Shown here: in pieces, positions 12,476-23,111 of the stretch
Layout: each line of letters starts with the position of its first letter
Position numbering within the stretch: the first letter of the stretch is position 1
Source of the DNA: Glycomyces tenuis DSM 44171
GTDB lineage: Bacteria > Actinomycetota > Actinomycetes > Mycobacteriales > Micromonosporaceae
DNA length: 64,000 nucleotides
Assembly (NCBI RefSeq): GCF_000427885.1
Contig: NZ_ATYW01000001.1
Location: 240,699 to 304,698, forward strand
Reading direction: 5' to 3'
Program-made: the position numbers and the translations under genes
The notes under the pieces: generated by a model
Seen by the model: the letters and a program-made list of their open reading frames with translations, nothing else
Databases searched by the model: none
Told to the model about the DNA's origin: nothing

Positions 12476-13024
12476 TCAACTCGGCGGGTCCTCGCCGACG
12501 AGACCGTCGACCGATTCGCGGATGAGGTCGGCGTGGCCGGTGTGCCTGGCGTACTCCTCGATGAGGTCGATCATCATGCGCCGCAGGCTCGGCGAGCCGC
12601 CGTCCAGCCACGTGCAGCGCACGAGCTGGTCGAGGCCACCGTGCTCGAGCGCCTCGGCGAGCAGGAGGCGCGACCGCGCCACCGCGCCGCTCCACAACTC
12701 CATGAGCTGCTCGGGTGTGTCCTCCGCCGCGGAGTTCCAGTCCCACTCCGGGTCGGCCTCCCAGTCCGCGGTGGTCCACGGCTCGCCGAACGGCCGGTCG
12801 TGGAGCATGTGGGAGAACTTCTCCTCCTCGACGCGCGCCAGGTGCTTCAGCAGGCCGCCCAAGGTCACCGCGGAGGCGCCGACCGTCGCCCGCATGCCTT
12901 CGGCGTCGAGTCCCCCGCACTTCCATGCGAGGGTGGCCCGCCGGCGTTCCAGCGAGCCGATCAGCGTCGCGGTCTCGTCGCCCGCGAGCGGCGGTTCGAT
13001 GCGGTTCTCATAGGTGTCGCTCAC
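12476..13024 (-). CDS. DinB-family protein
   Basis: 182 residues, GTG start at 13024 with no strong ribosome binding site. The DinB/DUF664 four-helix fold is suggested by LGGLLKHLARVEEEKFSHML, a long loop with DRPFGEPWTTADW, and RRMMIDLIEEYARHTGHADLIRE near the C-terminus. His66, His150 and His153 (approximate) are the usual metal triad. In actinobacteria many DinB proteins are mycothiol-dependent transferases. It follows the first LuxR gene on the same strand with a 46-base gap, so may be cotranscribed. Confidence 0.85.
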   Translation of the reverse strand: MSDTYENRIEPPLAGDETATLIGSLERRRATLAWKCGGLDAEGMRATVGASAVTLGGLLKHLARVEEEKFSHMLHDRPFGEPWTTADWEADPEWDWNSAAEDTPEQLMELWSGAVARSRLLLAEALEHGGLDQLVRCTWLDGGSPSLRRMMIDLIEEYARHTGHADLIRESVDGLVGEDPPS

Positions 13025-13070
13025 AGGCCGAGGCTGCCAACCGGGTCCGGCACCGGGCGGGAGCTCCCTC

Positions 13071-15812
13071 CTACAGGCCCAGTCTCGACAGCTCGTTGCG
13101 GGAGGCGACGCCGAGTTTCGGATAGGCCTTGTACAGGTGGTAGCCGGCGGTGCGCGGGCTCAAATAGAGCTGCTCGCCGATCTCGCGGTTGCTCAGGCCC
13201 GCCGCCGCCAGGCGCACCACTTGCAGCTCCTGGGGCGTCAGGCGCTCGGCCAGGCCGGGGCCGTTCTCGACCGGCCCGGCGTCGCCCGCCGCGCGCAGTT
13301 CGCGCCGCACCCGCTCGGTCCACGGCGCGGCGCCGAGGCGCTCGAAGGTCTCGGCGGCCGCGCGCAGGCGGGTCTTGGCCTCGCCCACGCGCCTGGCCCG
13401 GCGCAGCCACTCGCCGAGGACGAGCTCGGTCCTGGCGGTCTCGAAGGGGAAGGCGTCGGCCTCGCGGTGCAGCTCGGCGGCGCGCTCGTAGTGCTTGCCG
13501 GCCTCCTCCTCGGGCGCGAGGAGGCCGAGGCAGCGCTCGACCATCGCCTGCCAATGCGGCACGCCCGTCGCTTCGGCCCAGAGCCTGAACCACGAGAAGA
13601 CCTCGGCGACCCGGCCGGGATCGCCGACGCGGACGGCGGCCTCGACCGCCACCGGGGCGTGCGTCAGCGCGTCGCCGGGCGCCTCGGATTCGAAGCGCGC
13701 CATGTACCGGTCGAGCGTCTCCTCGTAGCGGCCGAGGCTGAAGTCGAGCAGCGCGAGCGCCGTGTCGACGGCGACGAGCGTCCCCGCGGGCGACTCGTCG
13801 AGCGCCGAGCCGATGAGTTCCCTGGCTCGGACCTCGTCGCCGCGCAGCGCCGCGATCGGGGCGAGCACCCATGCCCGCGCCTTGACCGGTCCGATGCGCT
13901 GCCCGAGCTCGTAGGAGATCTCCACGGAGTTCTCGGCCAGCGCCACGGCGTCGGCCCATCGTCCTCTGTGGAACTCGGTGACGGCGTAGAGGGCCAGTGC
14001 CCTCGGCAGCGGCCCGGAGGCGCCGGACTCGCGGCATTCGCGAACGAGCGCCGCGCCGGAGCGTTCGGCCCTGTCGATGTCGCCGATCAGGAGCCGCCAC
14101 CAGGTGATCATGGCCCGGTCCTCCAGCGAGGTCCTCGGGCCGAACTCCTCGTGGATGCCGATCAGGTGCCGCAGCGAGTCCACCGCGTCGGCGACGGTGA
14201 ACGCGCATGAGCGGTTGAACCCGGCGGTGGCGACGGCCAGTGCCCGCACCCACGGGGCGTGTTCGAGGCCGAGCCGCTCGGCGTACTCGGCGGTCACCTC
14301 GGCGCGGGAGAAGTCCCCGCCCTGCCAGGCCAGTTCGACGGCGCGGAACAGCGGGTACCCGGCGGCCTCGGGCCTGGAGGCCTGGTAGTGGTCGGCGGCC
14401 TCCATCCACAGCCGGTAGGCCTCGTGGACCTCCCCGCCCCAGGAGGCGACCGAGGCGCCGACGGTGGTGGCGCGGGCCAGCAGCCTCCGGTCCCGGGTCC
14501 AGTACCCCACCTGCGCGCACAGCTCCGCGGCCTTGGCGCCGTTGCCCGCCAGCATGGCGGCTTCGGCGGCCAGCACCAGGCGCCGCCCCTTCTCATGGCC
14601 GTCGGGGGTGAAGGCGGCGGCGCGCTCGTAGATCGAGTACTCGACGCGGTGGCCGCCGCAGCCGCGCACGCATTCGCCGGAGGCCTCGAGCGCGGCCGCC
14701 ACGGACTCGTCGGGGCCGGTCGTGGCGGCGGCGAGGTGGAAGGCCCGGCGGTGGTCGGCCTCGTCCATGGCCTCGGCGATGGCCAGATGCGCCTCGACGC
14801 GGCGGTAGGAGGGGGCGCCCTGGTAGGCGGCCGAGCGGATGAGCGGGTGGCCGAACTCGAAGCGGTCCTGGGCGAAGTGGACGAGGTCGTCGGCCTCGGC
14901 GGGCGCCAGATCGGACAGGCCCGCGCCGAGTTTCCCGGCGGCGGCCAGGACGGTGCCGGTGTCGCCGGTGTCCTCGGCGGCGATGACGAGCAGCAGTGTG
15001 CGGGTGGCCTCGGGGAGGCGGTCGATGCGGTCGCGGAACGCCTGCGTCAGGCGGGCGGTCGTGGAGCGGCGGTGTCCGGGCCGGTCGGTGGCGGGGCGGG
15101 CGTCGGGCTCGGTCGGCGGCAGTTCGAGCAGGGCGAGCGGGTTGCCCGCCGCGGCTTGGAGGAGGCGCTGCCGCGCCGTCTGGGGCATGCCGGTGAGCCG
15201 CTCGCCGAGCAGGCTCGCGGCGGCCGCGTCGTCGAGCGGGCCGACGGAGAGCTCGTCGACGCCGGGCGCGGGGAAGTCGGGGGCGTAGCCGTCGCGGGCG
15301 GCGAACAGCATCGCGATCGGCTCGGCGGTGAGGCGCCTGGCGACGAACAGCAGGACCTCGGCCGAGTCGGGGTCGAGCCAGTGGGCGTCGTCGACGACGC
15401 ACAGCACCGGCTTCGCCGCCGCGGCCTCGGCCAGCAGGCTGAGGACGGCGACGCCGATGATGAAGCGGCTGTCGAGGCGCTCCTGCTCGGAGGGCGGACG
15501 CTTCTTGAGATCGGGGTTCAGGCCGAGCACGGTGCGCAGGACGCAGGCGTGGGAGTCGGCGAGCGCGTCGAGGTGGCCGGTGAGGGGCAGCAGGAGCGCC
15601 TGGAGCCCCGCGTAGGACCAGGCGTGCTCGCTCTCGACGCCGACGCAGCGCAGCACCGTGAAGTCGGCGGCCGCCTCGGCGGCGGCGTCCACGAGGGTGG
15701 ACTTGCCTATCCCGGCCTCCCCGCGGATCACCAGTGCGGATCCACGGGAGGCGCGGGCGTCCTCGAGGAGGGATTCGAGGCCGGCGATCTCTTGGGCGCG
15801 TCCGTACAGCAC
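13071..15812 (-). CDS. LAL-type LuxR regulator with AAA ATPase domain (paralogue 1)
   Basis: 913 residues. I use the GTG at 15812 (VLYGRAQEI, the usual family N-terminus) rather than the TTG at 15857. The ATPase domain has Walker A GEAGIGKST (about 31-39) and Walker B VLCVVDDAHW. A long TPR-like helical middle follows. The C-terminal LuxR HTH is ELQVVRLAAAGLSNREIGEQL plus SPRTAGYHLYKAYPKLG. Such regulators activate transport or secondary-metabolite genes in an ATP/ligand-dependent manner. The C-terminus is close to that of the second LuxR protein at 19489-22359. It sits downstream of the FMN reductase (115-base gap) and upstream of dinB. Confidence 0.9.
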   Translation of the reverse strand: MLYGRAQEIAGLESLLEDARASRGSALVIRGEAGIGKSTLVDAAAEAAADFTVLRCVGVESEHAWSYAGLQALLLPLTGHLDALADSHACVLRTVLGLNPDLKKRPPSEQERLDSRFIIGVAVLSLLAEAAAAKPVLCVVDDAHWLDPDSAEVLLFVARRLTAEPIAMLFAARDGYAPDFPAPGVDELSVGPLDDAAAASLLGERLTGMPQTARQRLLQAAAGNPLALLELPPTEPDARPATDRPGHRRSTTARLTQAFRDRIDRLPEATRTLLLVIAAEDTGDTGTVLAAAGKLGAGLSDLAPAEADDLVHFAQDRFEFGHPLIRSAAYQGAPSYRRVEAHLAIAEAMDEADHRRAFHLAAATTGPDESVAAALEASGECVRGCGGHRVEYSIYERAAAFTPDGHEKGRRLVLAAEAAMLAGNGAKAAELCAQVGYWTRDRRLLARATTVGASVASWGGEVHEAYRLWMEAADHYQASRPEAAGYPLFRAVELAWQGGDFSRAEVTAEYAERLGLEHAPWVRALAVATAGFNRSCAFTVADAVDSLRHLIGIHEEFGPRTSLEDRAMITWWRLLIGDIDRAERSGAALVRECRESGASGPLPRALALYAVTEFHRGRWADAVALAENSVEISYELGQRIGPVKARAWVLAPIAALRGDEVRARELIGSALDESPAGTLVAVDTALALLDFSLGRYEETLDRYMARFESEAPGDALTHAPVAVEAAVRVGDPGRVAEVFSWFRLWAEATGVPHWQAMVERCLGLLAPEEEAGKHYERAAELHREADAFPFETARTELVLGEWLRRARRVGEAKTRLRAAAETFERLGAAPWTERVRRELRAAGDAGPVENGPGLAERLTPQELQVVRLAAAGLSNREIGEQLYLSPRTAGYHLYKAYPKLGVASRNELSRLGL

Positions 15813-15927
15813 GCATGCAACGATAGCGCCGCCCAAAAAGGCCTGGAAAGTCCGCAAGCCATGGCCGGTAAGCCTTCCCTCATGGGGAAAAGACCGCGGG
15901 CCGTGGACGCGCGGAGAGCCCGCGCCC

Positions 15928-16521
15928 TCAGGCCGGGAGCGGCGCTTCCCTGCGGGCGTTGACCAGCGCCCGGCCCCACCATTCGAGCTCGTCGAGGAAG
16001 CTCTTGGCGTGCGGCTCGGCCTCGTCGAAGCCGGCGAACCGGCCGTTCTCGTCGAACTTCTCCCAGTACATCGAGAACATCAGGGTGTGGCGGATGGTCG
16101 TCGCCCGCAGCTCGGGGAAGACCTGGCGCAGGTGCTCGGCGGCCCGCTGGCCTCCGGCGCCGCCACCGTAGGAGACCAGCCCGACCGGCTTGGCGGCCCA
16201 CTCGGACATGTAGTAGTCGATGGCGTGCTTGAGCGGGGCCGGATAGGAGTGGTTGTACTCGGGCGTGACGACGATGAACGCGTCGGCGCGGTGGAGGCGC
16301 TCGCCGAGGGTCGCGACGGGGACGCTCGGTTCCCCCGGGCGCGACCACAGGTCCAGTTCGGTCATGTGCTGGGGCAGGTCGGTGTCGAGCAGGTCGACCA
16401 GGTCGACCTCGAAGCCGCCGTGCCGGGCCGCGGCCTCGGCGATCCACTTGGCGGGGACCGGGCCCCAGCGGCCCTCGCGGGTGGAGCCGATGATGACGGC
16501 CAGGTTCAGCTTGTCGGACAT
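15928..16521 (-). CDS. NAD(P)H-dependent FMN reductase family protein
   Basis: 197 residues, ATG at 16521. Flavodoxin-like FMN reductase motifs: AVIIGSTREGRWGPVPAKWI (phosphate-binding loop) and FIVVTPEYNHSYPAPLKHAIDYY, with a later GGGAGGQRAAEHL. The family reduces FMN, quinones or azo compounds in the cytoplasm. It is divergent from the MFS gene at 16701. Its promoter contains a CCAGTCG-type operator shared with three other genes in the locus, suggesting control by the neighbouring LuxR regulators. Confidence 0.92.
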   Translation of the reverse strand: MSDKLNLAVIIGSTREGRWGPVPAKWIAEAAARHGGFEVDLVDLLDTDLPQHMTELDLWSRPGEPSVPVATLGERLHRADAFIVVTPEYNHSYPAPLKHAIDYYMSEWAAKPVGLVSYGGGAGGQRAAEHLRQVFPELRATTIRHTLMFSMYWEKFDENGRFAGFDEAEPHAKSFLDELEWWGRALVNARREAPLPA

Positions 16522-16560
16522 GGGGTTCTCTTTCGCTCGTCATTGCGGTTGACGACAACG

Positions 16561-16605
16561 AAGCTACGGACGGACCGACTGGAGCGGCATCTGTCGGGCG
16601 ACTGG
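16561..16605 (-). promoter_or_regulatory. FMN reductase promoter with LuxR-locus operator
   Basis: On the minus strand CCAGTCGCCCGAC (16605-16593) is followed after 26 bases by a TANNNT -10 element, TAGCTT (16566-16561). The operator thus sits just upstream of the -35 position. An extra CCAGTCGG lies in the spacer (16582-16575). The leader to the ATG is about 33 bases. Confidence 0.55.
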
Positions 16606-16646
16606 CCGCCGACCGGTCGAGGGCCGCGGCCGGCGCCCGTCGCCGC

Positions 16647-16692
16647 GACCAGTCGGTCGACGGATGCGGCGCCACCGCGCCGCCCATAGCTT
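16647..16692 (+). promoter_or_regulatory. MFS gene promoter with LuxR-locus operator
   Basis: GACCAGTCGGTCGAC (16647-16661), 21 bases, then CCCATAGC (16683-16690) giving a TANNNT -10 at 16687-16692. Transcription would start around 16699, making the mRNA almost leaderless for the ATG at 16701. Operator, 21-base spacing and CCCATAGC are the same at 22477-22520. Confidence 0.6.
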
Positions 16693-16700
16693 TGGGAACC

Positions 16701-18077
16701 ATGACCACCGCACTCGAATCGGCCCCAGCGGTCGAACGCACCCGCTGGGGGGCGATCGCCGCCGTCGGCTTCGCCCAGCTCGTCGTCGCCGGCGGCATGT
16801 CCGCCCTGGCCGTGGGGCTCCCCCCGATCCGCACCGAGTTCACCGTCTCCGAGGCGTCCACCGCCTGGGTCCTGCTCGCCTACGCCCTGCCGATGGGTGC
16901 GGTCGCGATCGCGGCCGGGCGCCTGGCCGACCGCGCCGACATGCGCGCGGTCGCCGTGTTCTCCATGGGCGGCCTCGGCCTGTTCGCCCTGGCCGCCGCG
17001 CTCGCGCCGAGCTTCCCGGTCCTGATCGCCGCCAGGGTCGCGCAGGGCCTGCTCGGCGGGCTCCTGTTCGGCATGACCGGGCGGATCATCGTCACCTCGG
17101 CAACCGAGGCGCAGCGCGGCCGGGCGATGTCGACGATCACGCTGCTGATGACCATCGGCGGCATGGGCATGGTCGGCGCGGGCGGGCTCATCATCGCCGC
17201 CTTCGACTGGCGCGGCCTGTTCTGGGTCTTCGTCGCCATGGCGGCGCTGGCGATGGCCGCGCTGTGGGCGACGGTGCCGAGCAACGGCACGGGACTGCCG
17301 CGCCTGGACCGGGTCATCGTCGTCGACGTGGCGACCTCCGGCGGCGCGATCGTGGCGTTCCTGCTGGCCTTCGAATACCTCGACTCGGCGCCGTGGATCT
17401 CCTTGGCGGCCTTGGCGGCGAGCGTCGCGCTCGGCGCGCTGTGGGTGCGCCAGCCCTCGTCGAGGGCGACGGTCGCCCTGGTGCGCAGGCCGATCATGGC
17501 GGGGGCGCTGCTGAGCCTGACGCTGATGTCGGGGGTGACGGGCCTGCTGAACTTCAGCCTGCCGTTCCTGCTGACCGACGTACACGAGATGCCCTCGGAG
17601 CTGGTGAGCACGGTGCTGCTGACGTACATCGGCGGCGTCGGGCTGATGACGCCGCTCTCGGGGTTCCTGGCCGACCGCTTCGGCGCGGGCCGCGTCTCCC
17701 TGGCGGGGGCGGGCCTGGTCATGGTCGCGATCGTGCCGCTGCTGTTCGTGGACGAGTCCACGGGGCTGCTCGGCATCGGCGTGCGGATCGCCGCGCTGGG
17801 CCTGGCGTTCGGAGTGTTCAACACGCCGATGAACACGCACCTGCTGGCGGCGGCGCCGGACGAGCAGGCGGGGACGGCCGGGGCGTTCATGGCGACGACG
17901 AGGACGATCGGCACCTCGCTGGGGCCGGTGATCGCCGCGCTCATGTGGGGGCTGGGAGCGACGGCGGTGGACGGCTACCGCCTCTCGGCCTGGGCCGTGG
18001 CCGCGATCCTCCTGTTGGGAGCGGCCGCGATGATGAGCGGCAGACCCTGGCGCGCCCCGGCTCCCACCGCGTCATGA
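16701..18077 (+). CDS. MFS transporter, drug/metabolite efflux type
   Basis: 458 residues from the ATG at 16701. Twelve hydrophobic segments are visible. Loop 2-3 has the MFS signature GRLADRADMRAVAVF; the first half starts WGAIAAVGFAQLVVAGGMSALAVGLPPI. The C-terminal half carries GFLADRFGAGRVSLAG. It probably exports a small hydrophobic compound. It diverges from the FMN reductase and shares the CCAGTCG operator, so is likely co-regulated by the LAL regulators. No ribosome binding site is present, consistent with leaderless translation. Confidence 0.9.
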   Translation: MTTALESAPAVERTRWGAIAAVGFAQLVVAGGMSALAVGLPPIRTEFTVSEASTAWVLLAYALPMGAVAIAAGRLADRADMRAVAVFSMGGLGLFALAAALAPSFPVLIAARVAQGLLGGLLFGMTGRIIVTSATEAQRGRAMSTITLLMTIGGMGMVGAGGLIIAAFDWRGLFWVFVAMAALAMAALWATVPSNGTGLPRLDRVIVVDVATSGGAIVAFLLAFEYLDSAPWISLAALAASVALGALWVRQPSSRATVALVRRPIMAGALLSLTLMSGVTGLLNFSLPFLLTDVHEMPSELVSTVLLTYIGGVGLMTPLSGFLADRFGAGRVSLAGAGLVMVAIVPLLFVDESTGLLGIGVRIAALGLAFGVFNTPMNTHLLAAAPDEQAGTAGAFMATTRTIGTSLGPVIAALMWGLGATAVDGYRLSAWAVAAILLLGAAAMMSGRPWRAPAPTAS

Positions 18078-18113
18078 GGACCTCGGCCAGGCTTCGAGGC
18101 CTCGCGCGGGCGG

Positions 18114-19409
18114 TCATCGCCGACGCCGCCTGCGCGGCGAGCGGATCAGTTCCGAGGCCAGGCCGATGACGATCGACACGATCCCGCCGGCCACCAGCTC
18201 CTCCCTCAGCGAAGCGGGATTGAGCCGGAACCAGTCGGCGATCGTCCTCACGCTGTCGTCGATCTGCGGGGCGAGGACGACGAGCGTCAGGCCGACCACC
18301 ACGATCCACAACCTCCGCTTGACCAGCCAGTGCCGGACGCGCCGCACGGCGTCCCGGCCCGCCTCCAACATCCTCGCTCTTCGGGTGCGCGGCCGGGAGA
18401 GCCGCCATTCGACGAGCGCCACGATCCCCTGCGACACCAGCCAGACGTAGCGGTCGGTGCCGTTGCCGAACGTGTCGTCCCAGGAGCCCCTGGTCTGCGA
18501 GCCGCCCGCCGTCTCCTGGGCCGCGAGGATGTAGCGGACCAGGCGCCTCGCCATGTCCCGCGCGAGCTGCTCGTCGCAGCGCGCGAGCGCCAACAGGATC
18601 CAGAAGTTCCCCGACACGTGGAAATGCGGGAAGCGCACTTCACGGCGCGTCTTGATCGCCCAGTGGTCGCTCACCGGCGGCCACGACCCGTCCGCCTGCT
18701 GGAGCCGGGCCAAGTACCGCAGGGCCGCCTTCTTGACCTCTTCGGAAACGGGGGTGTCGGAGACCGACAGCACATGCAGCACCATGCCCGTCATCGCCGG
18801 GCTCGGCGTGCCGTTGCGACGCGCGCTCCACCCGCCCGTGTTCGGGTCGCGCACGCGAAACAGGAAGTTCCTGATCCGATCCTGCGCCTCGAGATCGTGG
18901 CCCCACTCGGTGAAGGCCCACAGCGTCAGCGCGGCGGGGATCACGCGTGGACTGCGGTCGGTCTCCTCGACGCCGGAGCGGACCGTGCCGTCGGGCGCCA
19001 CTCGCGAGCTCAGGTAGGCGAGCGCCCGAGCGACGTACTGGGATCGGCCGTGGCCGTACTCCTTGAGCCCCACCAGCACCCATACCGTCGGCTCGATCCC
19101 CGCGAAGCCCTGCTCTCGCAGCGGGAAGGAGCCGTTGCGCTTCTGCTGGCGGAGGATCGTGTCGACCACGTCGTCGAGGCGGACGTTGAAGTGCCCGGGC
19201 ACCTTCAGCCCGGGGACGAGCTCATTGACCCGTTCGACGGCGGTGAAGGCCCGGACACCGTCGATGCCGCCGCCCCACACGGGAGTCTCCGAACCCCCGC
19301 GGGTGACCGGCCAACCGGGCACGTCGTCGACATAGGCCTCGGCGACCCAGTGCAACGCGCGCTCGAGGCACGCGAACAGCTGGCGGTCCCGAATCGAGGG
19401 GGAGGACAT
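18114..19409 (-). CDS. Terpenoid-toroid (prenyltransferase/squalene-oxidase repeat) protein with C-terminal membrane helices
   Basis: 431 residues. Residues 20-330 form alpha/alpha-barrel repeats with QW-like motifs: QQKRNGSFPL, GTVRSGVEETDRSPRVIPAAL, DPNTGGWSARRNG, QQADGSWPPVSDHW, and a final GSWDDTFGNGTDRYVWLVSQGI. No DXDD or class-II cyclase acid is evident, so cyclase activity is doubtful. The C-terminus has two TM helices (LWIVVVGLTLVVLAP and VAGGIVSIVIGLASEL) and a poly-Arg tail. It lies 79 bases downstream of the second LuxR gene on the same strand and converges on the MFS gene. Role unknown. Confidence 0.75.
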   Translation of the reverse strand: MSSPSIRDRQLFACLERALHWVAEAYVDDVPGWPVTRGGSETPVWGGGIDGVRAFTAVERVNELVPGLKVPGHFNVRLDDVVDTILRQQKRNGSFPLREQGFAGIEPTVWVLVGLKEYGHGRSQYVARALAYLSSRVAPDGTVRSGVEETDRSPRVIPAALTLWAFTEWGHDLEAQDRIRNFLFRVRDPNTGGWSARRNGTPSPAMTGMVLHVLSVSDTPVSEEVKKAALRYLARLQQADGSWPPVSDHWAIKTRREVRFPHFHVSGNFWILLALARCDEQLARDMARRLVRYILAAQETAGGSQTRGSWDDTFGNGTDRYVWLVSQGIVALVEWRLSRPRTRRARMLEAGRDAVRRVRHWLVKRRLWIVVVGLTLVVLAPQIDDSVRTIADWFRLNPASLREELVAGGIVSIVIGLASELIRSPRRRRRR

Positions 19410-19488
19410 GGCTCACATGCTAAGCGGGCGCGGCGAACCGCGGCGTCACCGAATCCCGAACTGACGGAAACCCGACAGCGCGGCACCA

Positions 19489-22359
19489 TCAGAGATCGAG
19501 CTTCGCCAACTCGGTTCTCGAGGAGACGCCGAGCTTCGGGTAGGCGTTGTACAGGTGGTAGCCCACCGTTCTCGGGCTGACGAAGAGCTGCTCGCCGATC
19601 TGGCGGTTCGTCAGCCCGTCAGCGGCCAGCCGCACCACTTGCAGCTCTTGCGGCGTGAGCTTCTCGGCCAGGTCCGGCTTCGCCTCGATCGCCGAGGAGT
19701 CGCCCGCGGCGCGCAGCTCCCCTTGGGCGCGTTCGGTCCACGGCACGGCGCCGAGGCGCTCGAACACCTCCGTGGCCTCCCGCAGGTGAGCCCTGGCCTC
19801 GTTGATGCGGCGCTCGCGGCGCAGCCACTCGCCGTAGGCCAGTTCGGTGCGGGCCCGCTCGAAGGGATCGATGTCGTCGGCGCGGTGCAGCTCCACGGCC
19901 CGCGCGTAGTGCGCGCCCGCCTCGTCGTCCGGCTCCAGCATCGCCCGGCACCGCTCCACCAGCGCCTCCCAGTAGGAGCGCCCGGTGGCGTCGGCCCAGT
20001 CGGCGAACCAGCCGAAGACCTCCTTGACCTCCCCGAGCCTCCCGCAGCGGTAGGCCGCCTCCACGAGCGTCGGCACCTGCGTGAGGATCTCCATCGGCGT
20101 GGTGCCTTCGGCGATGCGGTGCATCCGCTCGAACGCCGCCTCGTGGCGGCCCAGCCCGAGATCGAGCAGCCCCAGGGAGGTGTCGGCGGGGATCACCGAG
20201 TCCTCGGGGGCGTCCTCGATCGCGGCGGCCACCAGTTCGCGGCAGCGCCGCTCCTCGCCGCGGATCGCCGCGATCGGCAGCAGCACCCACACGCGGCCCT
20301 GCATCAGGGCCCGGCGGTCGTTCGTCTCGGCGGCCAGCTCGATCGCGCTCGTCGCCGCCGCCTGCGCGTCCGCGTAGCGGCCGTAGTGGAGCTGCGTCTG
20401 CGCCTGCACCAGCAGCGCCTGGATCAGCGGGCTCGTGGCGCCCGCCTCACGGCAGTCCCGCACCTTCTCGCTCGCCGCGGTGTGCGCGGCCGGGACGTCC
20501 CCGGCCAGCAGCCGCCAGCGCGAGGCCAGCACCTGGTCGAAGCGCCGGAAGTCGTCGTGGAGCGGCTGGTAGTAGTCGTACAGGCTCCGCAGCGCGTCCA
20601 CCGCCTCGCCCGCGGTCACCCATGGGCGCCGGTTCAGCCCGGCGGCGGCGCGGGCCAGCCGCTTGGCCCAGGTGTTGTTCGAGCCGCCGAAGCGCGTCGC
20701 CAGCTCGTTCGCGTACTCGACCTTGCCGAAGTCACCGGTCTCCCAGGCGTTCCATACACCGCGCAGCAGCGGGTAGCCGGTGTTCTCGTGGCCGTTCACC
20801 GCGTAGTGCTCGGCCGATTCCATCCACACCTCGAAGGCGCCGGCGTCCCCGGCCCACGAGAGGACCGTGGCCCGGATGAGCGCGGTGCGCGCCAGCAGGA
20901 CGTGGTTCTCGGTGAGGCGCTCGGCTTTCTCCGCCAGTTCCAGGGCCTTCTCGACCAGGCCCGCCGCGTACGCGGTCTGGGAGGCCTCGACCAGGCGGCG
21001 GGCCCGCTCCTCGGCCTCGGGCGTGAACGACGCGGCGCGCTCGAGGGCGACCATCTCCGCCACGCAGCCACCGCGCTCGGCCTCATAGGACGCGATGGAC
21101 TCGAGCGCGGCGGCGGCCTTCTCGTCCAGGCCTGTCGTCGCCGCCGCCAGGTGGCGGGCGTGACGGATGTCGCCGTTGCCGAAGGCCTCGGACAGCGCCC
21201 GGTGCGCGTCGATCCGGCGGGCCCTGGTCGCCGAGTGGTAGGCCGCGGAGCGGATCAGCGGGTGCACGAACTCGATGCGGCCCAAGTGGTACCGGGCCAG
21301 ATCGTCGATCTCGGCGGGCTCGAGGTCGCTCAGGTTCGCGCCGAGCTTCTCGGCGGCCTCGGCGATCACGGCGGTCTCGCCGGTCTCCTCGGCGGCGGCC
21401 ACCAGCAGCAACGTGCGCGTCGCCTCGGGGAGCGCGATGATGCGCTCGGTGAACGCCTGCCGGATGCGCGAGGTCGTCGAGTAGCGGCTGTTGGAGGAGT
21501 CGATGGTGCGCAGCGGGTCCTCGTGGTCGGCCGCGGGGAGCTCGAGGAGCGCGAGCGGGTTGCCTTCGGCGAGGCGCAGGATCCAGTCGCGGCTGGTGTA
21601 CGGCACCGCGTCCGAGCGGGTGTCCAGGATCGCCTGGGAGGCCTCGATGTCGAGCGGCCCGAGCGTGAGCTCGGGGATGCCGGGGGCAGGGAACTCGGGG
21701 GCGAAGCCGTCGCGCACGACCAGGACCATCCCGATCGACTCGGTCGTCAGGCGCCTGGCGGCGAACAGCAGCGCGTCGGTGGAGTCGCGGTCGAGCCAGT
21801 GGGCGTCGTCGATCACGACGTACACCGGCCGCTGCGCCGAGGCGTCCACCAGCAGGTTCAGCACGGCCAGGCCGACCTGGAGACGCTGGGGGCGGCCCGT
21901 GCCGTCGCCCATGCCGAGCGCGGTGCGCAGCGCCTCGGCCTGCGCCGCCGGCAGGTTCCCGATCCGGTCCAGGAGCGGGTGCAGCAGCATCTGGAGGCCC
22001 GCGTACGACCAGGTGTGCTCGGCCTCGACGCCGAGGGTGCGCAGGACGGTGAAGCCCTCGGCCCGGGGGATCACGGCGTCGACGACCGCGGACTTGCCGA
22101 TGCCCGGCTCGCCGCGCACCACCCAGGCGCCGCCGTGCCCGAGGCGCGCGCCGTCGAGGAGGGCCTGGATGGTGTCGAGTTCGACGTCCCTGCCGTAGAG
22201 GACGGTGCGGGAGGAGTGCGAGAGGGCCTCGCAGTAGCTGGGGGCCGCGTCGCCGCCGACCTGGCAGTCCACCGCCTCGTTCTGATGCCGGGCCTCGAAC
22301 TGCTGAGCCCCGGTCGCGGGGCGGACGGTGGGCTTCACGGCGGCTCCAGTCCTCGGCAT
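19489..22359 (-). CDS. LAL-type LuxR regulator with AAA ATPase domain (paralogue 2)
   Basis: 956 residues from the ATG at 22359. This start lies about 11 bases after the predicted transcription start, with GGAAGAG between. It has a 55-60 residue N-terminal extension before TVLYGRDVEL that paralogue 1 lacks. Walker A GEPGIGKSAV lies near residue 83, Walker B VYVVIDDAHW, then a TPR-like middle. The C-terminal HTH is ELQVVRLAADGLTNRQIGEQL with SPRTVGYHLYNAYPKLG. The close match to the first LuxR protein implies a duplication. It is divergent from the half-MFS gene and probably cotranscribed with the toroid gene. Confidence 0.9.
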   Translation of the reverse strand: MPRTGAAVKPTVRPATGAQQFEARHQNEAVDCQVGGDAAPSYCEALSHSSRTVLYGRDVELDTIQALLDGARLGHGGAWVVRGEPGIGKSAVVDAVIPRAEGFTVLRTLGVEAEHTWSYAGLQMLLHPLLDRIGNLPAAQAEALRTALGMGDGTGRPQRLQVGLAVLNLLVDASAQRPVYVVIDDAHWLDRDSTDALLFAARRLTTESIGMVLVVRDGFAPEFPAPGIPELTLGPLDIEASQAILDTRSDAVPYTSRDWILRLAEGNPLALLELPAADHEDPLRTIDSSNSRYSTTSRIRQAFTERIIALPEATRTLLLVAAAEETGETAVIAEAAEKLGANLSDLEPAEIDDLARYHLGRIEFVHPLIRSAAYHSATRARRIDAHRALSEAFGNGDIRHARHLAAATTGLDEKAAAALESIASYEAERGGCVAEMVALERAASFTPEAEERARRLVEASQTAYAAGLVEKALELAEKAERLTENHVLLARTALIRATVLSWAGDAGAFEVWMESAEHYAVNGHENTGYPLLRGVWNAWETGDFGKVEYANELATRFGGSNNTWAKRLARAAAGLNRRPWVTAGEAVDALRSLYDYYQPLHDDFRRFDQVLASRWRLLAGDVPAAHTAASEKVRDCREAGATSPLIQALLVQAQTQLHYGRYADAQAAATSAIELAAETNDRRALMQGRVWVLLPIAAIRGEERRCRELVAAAIEDAPEDSVIPADTSLGLLDLGLGRHEAAFERMHRIAEGTTPMEILTQVPTLVEAAYRCGRLGEVKEVFGWFADWADATGRSYWEALVERCRAMLEPDDEAGAHYARAVELHRADDIDPFERARTELAYGEWLRRERRINEARAHLREATEVFERLGAVPWTERAQGELRAAGDSSAIEAKPDLAEKLTPQELQVVRLAADGLTNRQIGEQLFVSPRTVGYHLYNAYPKLGVSSRTELAKLDL

Positions 22360-22376
22360 GGCATGGGAACTCTTCC

Positions 22377-22420
22377 AGGGTAGCCACGCTGGCCGAACAC
22401 CGCATCTGTCAAACGACTGG
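22377..22420 (-). promoter_or_regulatory. Promoter of LuxR paralogue 2 with shared operator
   Basis: On the minus strand CCAGTCGTTTGAC (22420-22408) followed by AGATGC, as in the FMN reductase promoter, then a TANNNT -10 (TACCCT, 22382-22377) at the same distance as in the plus-strand promoters. This implies auto- or cross-regulation. Confidence 0.5.
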
Positions 22421-22476
22421 GGTGTACCGGGCCCGCGCCGACCGGGTCGGGCGACCTGGTCGAACCCAGTCACCGA

Positions 22477-22522
22477 GACCAGTCGTTCGACCTACTTCGG
22501 CGGGCGCGGGCGCCCATAGCGT
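22477..22522 (+). promoter_or_regulatory. Promoter of the half-MFS gene with shared operator
   Basis: GACCAGTCGTTCGAC (22477-22491), 21 bases, CCCATAGC (22513-22520), -10 TAGCGT at 22517-22522. The ATG at 22530 falls at the expected transcription start, so the message would be leaderless. It matches the promoter at 16647-16692 in sequence and spacing. Confidence 0.6.
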
Positions 22523-22529
22523 CGACGGC

Positions 22530-23111
22530 ATGGCTACTACGACATCCGCCCGGCGGCCCACCGCCGCACTGCGGTGGGCGCCGGTGATCTCGGCGGCGTA
22601 CGCGCAGGCCACCGCCTTCGCGGCCGCGGCCGTGCTCGCTTTCCTCATCACCGACGTCGCCGCCCACTTCACGGCGCCCGCCGCGGCCAGGCTCTGGCCG
22701 CTGGGGGCGCTCGCGCTCGGCATGGTCGCCGCCGCGAACGCCTCGCGGCGCGTCGGCGCGATCGGGCCGGCCCGCTACACCGGCTCGGCGGCGCTGGCGG
22801 GCCTGACCGCCTCGGCCTTCGCCGTCGCGCTCGCGCCGGGCTTCGCGTTCCTGCTCGTCGCGGCGTTCGCCATGGGGGTCTCGGGCGGGCTGGCCGTGGC
22901 GATCGCCGGGCGCGTGGTCGCCGCGGCCGAGGTCGGCGACGGCTCGGCGTCGGTCGTGGTCTCGGCGGTGGCGGTGTTCGCGGGGATCGTCGGGGGCGTG
23001 GGGAGCCTGTTCGTCGTGCCGGCGCTGGGCTGGCGGGGCGCGATGGGGCTCGTGGTGGTGGCGGCGGTGATGGCGACGTGGAAGTTCGCCGAGCACACGC
23101 CGCGCGAATAG
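22530..23111 (+). CDS. Half-length MFS-like membrane protein (six TM)
   Basis: 193 residues from the ATG at 22530. About six hydrophobic segments align with the N-terminal half of an MFS transporter: RWAPVISAAYAQATAF, LALGMVAAANASRRVG in place of the GRLADR loop, FLLVAAFAMGVSGGLAVAIAGRVV, GGVGSLFVVPALGWRGAMGL. It ends (MATWKFAEHTPRE) where the central loop of a full transporter begins. There is no second half downstream. It could be a degenerate relative of the 16701 transporter or a functional half-unit. It shares that gene's promoter arrangement. Confidence 0.75.
   Translation: MATTTSARRPTAALRWAPVISAAYAQATAFAAAAVLAFLITDVAAHFTAPAAARLWPLGALALGMVAAANASRRVGAIGPARYTGSAALAGLTASAFAVALAPGFAFLLVAAFAMGVSGGLAVAIAGRVVAAAEVGDGSASVVVSAVAVFAGIVGGVGSLFVVPALGWRGAMGLVVVAAVMATWKFAEHTPRE

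Follow-up and report, generated by a model that had tools for sequence, protein, structure and literature searches.

To our knowledge, few DNA sites are known for the large ATP-binding regulators of the LuxR family (LAL regulators). LAL-like proteins are numerous in the family considered here, with 30 to 245 first-look candidates per genome, a loose count which includes other LuxR proteins. At NarL sites, which are built of two inverted heptamers, the gap between the heptamers is 2 bp and the heptamer sequence differs from the one described below. In the nearest published parallel that our searches returned, MalT of Actinoplanes sp. SE50/110, the motif is TCATCC-N5-GGATGA, with its 3' end 34.4 nt before the transcription start site (PMC7567727). 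From the placement of this site, the promoter plan is therefore known for one LAL regulator. Here we describe a sequence element, different from the Actinoplanes motif, in a 64,000-nt stretch of Glycomyces tenuis DSM 44171 (G000:C1:240699-304698; hereafter the window, from a genome of 5.7 Mb in 44 contigs). The element is repeated at four promoters around two LAL genes, and it is very probably the operator of the two LAL (MalT-type) proteins.

A preliminary description of the window had placed CCAGTCG-NN-YGAC at four promoters. The four sites are found where it put them, and they are the sole exact matches to this 13-mer in the 64 kb, at 16605-16593 (-), 16649-16661 (+), 22420-22408 (-) and 22479-22491 (+). 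The sites, their -10 hexamers and the genes concerned, which include those for a flavin mononucleotide (FMN) reductase and a major facilitator superfamily (MFS) transporter, are as follows.

16590..16605, minus strand: operator of the FMN reductase - LuxR 1 promoter, CCAGTCG-CC-CGACAGA, a 7-2-7 inverted repeat, then TGC
16561..16566, minus strand: -10 hexamer of the FMN reductase promoter, TAGCTT
16649..16664, plus strand: operator of the MFS promoter, CCAGTCG-GT-CGACGGA
16687..16692, plus strand: -10 hexamer of the MFS promoter, TAGCTT, with the ATG 8 nt further
22405..22420, minus strand: operator of the LuxR 2 promoter, CCAGTCG-TT-TGACAGA
22377..22382, minus strand: -10 hexamer of the LuxR 2 promoter, TACCCT
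22479..22494, plus strand: operator of the half-MFS promoter, CCAGTCG-TT-CGACCTA
22517..22522, plus strand: -10 hexamer of the half-MFS promoter, TAGCGT, with the ATG 7 nt further
13071..15812, minus strand: LuxR 1 (LAL1), 913 aa, AAA_16 ATPase and C-terminal GerE helix-turn-helix (HTH)
19489..22359, minus strand: LuxR 2 (LAL2), AAA_16 ATPase and C-terminal GerE HTH
15928..16521, minus strand: NADPH-dependent FMN reductase family protein (PF03358), first gene of a putative operon with LuxR 1
16701..18077, plus strand: MFS transporter (PF07690), divergent from the FMN reductase
22530..23111, plus strand: half-size MFS-like protein, 193 aa, divergent from LuxR 2

LuxR 1 and LuxR 2 have both hallmarks of LAL regulators, namely an N-terminal AAA_16 ATPase (E 1.1e-19 and 6.1e-20) and a C-terminal LuxR/GerE HTH (residues 872-924 and 938-991 of the listed open reading frames). 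The start of LuxR 2 was set at the ATG at 22359, 3' of its own promoter, the longer listed frame overlapping that promoter. For the half-MFS protein, counted from the ATG at 22530, there was no match among NCBIfam families, nor any among Pfam families for the longer frame listed; the likeness of the protein to MFS proteins is a label of the preliminary description, given without a family match.

The distance from the start of the operator to TANNNT is 38 bases at the MFS, LuxR 2 and half-MFS promoters and 39 at the FMN reductase promoter, which corresponds to 25 or 26 bases past the end of the operator and bears out the spacing first given for all four promoters. The two plus-strand promoters do share, as had been noted, the 21-base spacing and CCCATAGC. 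The full element reads CCRGTCG-NN-YGAC(RGATGC), with TANNNT 38 or 39 bases from its start; the half-MFS operator is without the GATGC extension. Stacking of the Glycomyces sites gives CCRGTCG, two free bases, YGACRGA and then TGC, so that positions 0-6 and 9-15 are conserved and positions 7-8 free, the 7-2-7 pattern of NarL sites. The arms are inverted copies of YCNGTCG, and the dyad centre lies at -43.5 or -42.5 when the -10 is placed at -12 to -7, the transcription start being predicted from the -10. Among 89 sites with up to 3 mismatches to the 19-mer in the Glycomyces loci retrieved, TANNNT stands at 39 in 72, at 38 in 14 and at neither in 3, against a background of 0.18% for offsets 38-40. 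A dyad near -42 to -43 at a fixed distance from the -10 (86 of the 89 sites at 38 or 39) is the arrangement of class II activators which use inverted repeats. The -35 position reads TGCGGC-like, without the TTGACA about 17 bp from the -10 that would mark an unregulated sigma-70 promoter. The 3' end of the operator lies about 36 nt 5' of the predicted transcription start and leaves the -10 uncovered. A third CCRGTCG, in direct orientation at position 23, between -35 and -10, is frequent in the FMN reductase and MFS promoters of Glycomyces and in those of a further gene (ADH, see below); none was seen at this position in the aligned LuxR 2 promoters. With start codons 8 and 7 nt past the -10 (16687-16703 and 22517-22532), the MFS and half-MFS mRNAs may be leaderless. 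A general trend of this kind did not emerge, the first ATG being 6-8 nt past the -10 in 28 of 86 sites, against 87 of 358 at 5-9 nt in a background that includes the sites and is of similar size.

Conservation was examined in 22 Glycomyces genomes. Since loci picked by the motif made the counts circular (for the ADH gene, 13 of 13) or partly so (FMN reductase and MFS), LuxR 2 and ADH orthologues were recounted from protein searches that ignored the motif. LuxR 2 orthologues were found in 21 of the 22 genomes (none in G020) and all 21 adjoin a site, at spacing 39 in 18 and 38 in three; on the half-MFS side, a second, divergent site at spacing 38 accompanies LuxR 2 in 21 of 21. The ADH gene, which codes for a quinone-oxidoreductase-like protein, is a fifth predicted target elsewhere in the genome.

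G000:C2:381371-381417: site at the ADH gene in the genome of the window, matched by the sequence model R1 (see below)

This gene was found in 19 of the 22 genomes, with a site in each of the 19, always at 39. Among NCBIfam models, the PIG3 quinone-oxidoreductase family fits the ADH protein best, with a score of 170.7 bits that is below the curated cut-off of 296.8. At motif-picked loci, the FMN reductase has a site in 20 of 20, all at spacing 39, and the MFS gene in 18 of 19, with a spacing of 38 once and of 39 in the other 17; the exception, L107, has 3 mismatches. The corresponding figures are 18 of 22 for LuxR 2, where L085 is without LuxR 2 and L091, L098 and L109 were missed through an extrapolated gene start, and 19 of 20 for the half-MFS gene, the miss being L095; in the protein-based recount the site is present in L091, L098, L109 and L095. 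Additional putative targets in some species are genes for a Cys/Met pyridoxal-phosphate (PLP) enzyme and an erythromycin-esterase-family protein, assigned by Pfam for one example each and otherwise by similarity or by eye, with a wrong frame for a few. Close to the locus, Glycomyces genomes also conserve a gene of the TetR family. As a separate observation, in genome G021 the operator precedes a 162-aa frame (L310:3701-4334, minus strand) with a GerE domain (40 of 57 positions); the frame is 87% identical to LAL1 over 45 aa and is possibly an HTH-only relative or a remnant.

The bare 13-mer carries little information. With up to 2 mismatches it gives 81 matches in the window against a shuffle mean of 97.5, without enrichment, and its exact form gives 27 matches genome-wide against 18 in the control, which is near chance. 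The preliminary description had named scatter over the genome without promoter context as a threat to its proposal; such scatter is real for the 13-mer and does not extend to the full element. At E<0.01 the model R1, built from 71 Glycomyces sites, matches the 5.7-Mb genome at 4 places, each upstream of a gene, with three in the window and one at the ADH gene; the half-MFS site is not among them. Applied to the 22 Glycomyces genomes at E<=0.01, R1 yields 103 matches, many of them training sites, and every genome has one or more. The pattern CCAGTCGNNYGACNGATGCGGC with up to 2 mismatches yields 81 matches in these 22 genomes versus 12 for the reversed pattern, and 27 versus 88 in the 39 other genomes of the same search. 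An extended pattern allowing 3 mismatches gives 14 matches in the genome of the window versus 21 in the control, and only the 4 matches with 0-1 mismatch stand out. Scanning blind to sequence for a 7-2-7 repeat with TANNNT, we counted 22 cases at distance 39 and 11 each at 38 and 40, versus about 7, while a gap of 0 at distance 38 gives 18; the peak is modest, and the scan alone would therefore not prove the case.

Outside the genus, four genera contribute five genomes (L142-L146) in which the operator, with a spacing of 38 or 39, stands before FMN reductase-ADH genes, so that the conservation in relatives on which the first proposal had been made to depend is found both at orthologous Glycomyces loci and beyond them, with the same spacing. 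LAL1 follows in the same gene run in 4 of these 5 and lies about 4.6 kb off in L145, so the ADH gene, remote from the module in Glycomyces, forms a cluster with LAL1 elsewhere. With a matrix built from Glycomyces sites only, 46 matches of 15 bits or more were obtained in 31 of 95 non-Glycomyces LAL loci and none in the reversed sequences. For the 75 loci picked by LAL homology alone the figures are 33 matches in 23 loci, again with none in reversed sequences; the other 20 (L141-L160) were picked around LALs, three with nearby pattern matches already known, and 8 of them are positive. Once the matrix had been retrained three times, 60 of the 95 loci held a site scoring 16 bits or more, versus none in the control (63 versus 2 at 14 bits), counts which are less independent as training and test loci are identical.

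A second model, R2, was built from 31 non-Glycomyces sites and applied to 14 genomes of 3.5-10.8 Mb chosen for holding such LAL loci, where it gives 59 matches at E<=0.05, 1-9 per genome. Beyond the loci already analysed, all places at E<=0.001 were examined, in 19 regions of which 4 were training loci, and weaker places were followed in part. Four of the 15 new places lie no more than 8 kb from a LAL of 600 aa or longer, in each case of the matching HTH type. Among 17 arbitrary regions from the same genomes, two have a long LuxR-type protein, neither of matching type, and one has a single site-like match of 19.3 bits. In 14 LAL-poor genomes, defined by a best LuxR 2 match at E 3.8e-32 to 4.6e-10 (six others at 1e-26 to 1e-30 were left out), 5 weak matches were found, the best at E 8e-4, and all fall short of the model's -10 part. 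Twenty genomes whose LALs are more distant gave 21 matches, of which at least 10, the four best-scoring among them, have a listed LAL no more than 1.3 kb away; without the training locus L157, which has two matches, the count is at least 8 of 19.

The letters of the operator vary with the type of regulator. Seventy-six sites with a proper -10, from 58 loci, were each assigned to the LAL HTH closest to them, the domains being located by hidden Markov model (a regular expression had recovered 2 loci only), and clades were counted with one site per LAL within 2.5 kb. LALs with the helix SPKTVSYHL have a GTC-type right arm in 4 of 4 and those with SPRTIGQHL a TAC right arm in 5 of 5; for E-Y/E-H helices the arm is TAC in 7, of another type in 1 and absent in 3, and for SPRTVGYHL it is GAC in 17 of 26, with 8 lacking a site and one of another type. 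Mapped on the LAL tree, operator types require 23 changes versus a shuffled mean of 48, and 0 of 200 shuffles were as low; the Mantel correlation of operator and HTH is r=0.20 (p=0.0005). This co-variation supports, without proving, direct recognition of the operator by the LAL HTH, because regulator and operator are neighbours and are inherited together. An apparent tie between Ile-Gly in the HTH and possession of a site (31 IG and 27 IA among positives; 9 IG, 25 IA and 3 VA among negatives) is confounded by ancestry and was not used. Two clades merit separate mention. Loci L211, L224, L157 and L366, with the helix TVASHLYKAF, each hold several TCAGTCA-NN-TGACNGA sites, often as close divergent pairs, adjoining genes that resemble by eye those for small membrane proteins and a short-chain dehydrogenase. 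In the SPRTIGQHL clade, a near-identical TGAGTCA-CC-TTACTCA lies beside the LAL in five genomes (L150, L153, L158, L160 and L228), one of which has TGCGTCA.

In the mechanism that we consider much the most probable, the LAL proteins are activators that bind next to the -35 and turn on genes for redox reactions, detoxification and export. A LAL oligomer, on sensing its ligand with ATP, would bind the repeat through its C-terminal HTH domains and recruit RNA polymerase from beside the -35. LuxR 2 would thereby regulate its own gene, while expression of LuxR 1 would be governed by the FMN reductase promoter. The linkage of the site to LAL genes across Actinomycetota argues for binding by LALs, and its placement and symmetry, together with the lack of a -35, are consistent with their acting as class II activators. 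Several results weigh against this. R1 was trained on the very sites that it recovers within the genus and R2 on sites mostly adjacent to LALs; even after iteration of the matrix, 37 of the 95 LAL loci are without a site having a proper -10. With the rest of the protein controlled for, the partial Mantel correlation of operator and helix is borderline (r=0.126, p=0.054), and the non-operator spacer, taken as a control, is itself correlated both with the remainder of the LAL (r=0.17, p=0.003) and with its HTH (r=0.09, p=0.04), so shared ancestry explains part of the co-variation. Finally, 11 of the 15 new R2 places have no LAL of at least 600 aa within 8 kb. These distant places, the near-palindromic core, of a kind used by repressors, and the conserved TetR-family gene would suit an operator of another transcription factor, for instance a quinone-sensing MarR/HxlR or TetR repressor encoded elsewhere, with the LAL genes as mere targets. 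We regard this as unlikely, since the site occurs at LAL genes in many families while LAL-poor genomes give weak and partial matches only, its variants cluster by LAL HTH clade, and its end, well short of the -10, is expected of a class II activator and not of a repressor.

The LALs could also bind the repeat and repress, or one of them activate and the other repress. A LAL-type repressor of antibiotic genes, SCO6993, has been published (PMC9628970), and at the FMN reductase, ADH and MFS promoters the third heptamer could let a bound protein block the polymerase; the fixed centre at -43.5/-42.5 and the absence of TTGACA at -35 suit an activator, and the aligned LuxR 2 promoters do not show the third heptamer in its customary position, which makes repression an improbable account as well. 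That the element is a core-promoter feature, an extended -35 read by an alternative sigma factor, has in its favour the rigid distance to the -10. Nevertheless the -10 is an ordinary TANNNT, the repeat has two arms centred at -43.5, its sequence differs between LAL clades at constant geometry, and the genome holds just the 4 R1 matches, so that we consider a sigma factor highly improbable.

Under activation by the LALs, the regulon would comprise the FMN reductase, the quinone-oxidoreductase-like enzyme, the MFS exporter and the half-MFS protein, joined in some relatives by the erythromycin-esterase-family protein or the Cys/Met PLP enzyme, a set for redox and electrophile detoxification. Judged by gene families only, its function looks like detoxification of quinones, electrophiles or xenobiotics. 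The genes next to ten of the eleven LAL-distant R2 places were read, with approximate start codons, and their Pfam families are FMN reductase, NAD(P)H-binding, DsbA-like, antibiotic-biosynthesis-monooxygenase (2), SnoaL/DUF4440 (2), erythromycin-esterase (2) and ABC exporter; their predicted products are a coherent redox and detoxification set. The duplicated LAL regulator-exporter module with one operator next to the -35, as first proposed, is thus supported in outline, and needed a fifth target elsewhere, the 7-2-7 form of the repeat, and a role in redox and detoxification rather than only in export. On the minus strand, the FMN reductase gene, LuxR 1 and one more gene stand in a row.

12476..13024, minus strand: mycothiol-S-transferase family protein (PF04978), 46 bp 3' of LuxR 1

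Transcription from the FMN reductase promoter probably extends into LuxR 1, the next gene in that direction, and the mycothiol-S-transferase-family gene is a possible member of the same operon. Between the two halves of the module lies a gene (18114-19409, minus strand) whose product has matches to squalene-hopene-cyclase/prenyltransferase folds. In some relatives (L093, L098) no more than tens of bases separate MFS from LuxR 2, so this gene is an inconstant part.

We lean slightly towards a wider proposal, in which a single promoter layout serves many actinobacterial LALs. It would consist of a 7-2-7 inverted repeat placed at -43.5/-42.5, with a few residues of the HTH reading the letters of the heptamers. 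Examples are SPRTVGYHL with GTCR-NN-YGAC, SPKTVSYHL with GTCA-NN-TGTC, E-Y/E-H mostly with AAA-NN-YTAC and SPRTIGQHL with GTCA-NN-TTAC. If this were true, operators and regulons of many orphan LALs could be deduced from sequence, and the clade of the window would represent a widespread LAL-controlled regulon for electrophile and quinone detoxification. An operator of fixed geometry that tracks its regulator through many genera offers a direct route to LAL targets, to tests of a recognition code and to inducers, and at the present locus it points to a compact redox and export regulon controlled by an ATPase regulator.

As far as our searches show, the operator, its regulon and its spread have not been described in the literature searched, which left out most subscription journals; text searches for the motif letters or for a link between LALs and quinones returned nothing relevant among the matches listed. 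The arrangement resembles the NarL heptamer site in its two inverted heptamers and its GerE/NarL-type HTH, although NarL is a response regulator and the proteins here are LALs. TpdR of Rhodococcus jostii TMP1 is likewise an actinobacterial LAL controlling genes for the degradation of a small molecule, but its site was proposed by its authors as a 15-bp direct repeat (PMC6099782). SCO6993 of Streptomyces coelicolor, also LAL-type, binds short palindromes, its own promoter included; it is, however, a repressor, for which its authors could predict no consensus site (PMC9628970). The MalT box of Escherichia coli belongs to an activator of LAL architecture, and its GGGGA(T/G)GAGG repeats are in direct order, whereas each site here is one inverted repeat of CCRGTCG and YGACRGA (PMC9628970, PMC7567727). 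With MalT of Actinoplanes the locus has in common an actinobacterial LAL-type activator, as predicted here, and an inverted repeat over the -35, centred there at about -43 as calculated from the published distance; it departs from it in carrying CCAGTCG-N2-CGACRGA instead of TCATCC-N5-GGATGA with its maltose-dependent regulon region (PMC7567727).

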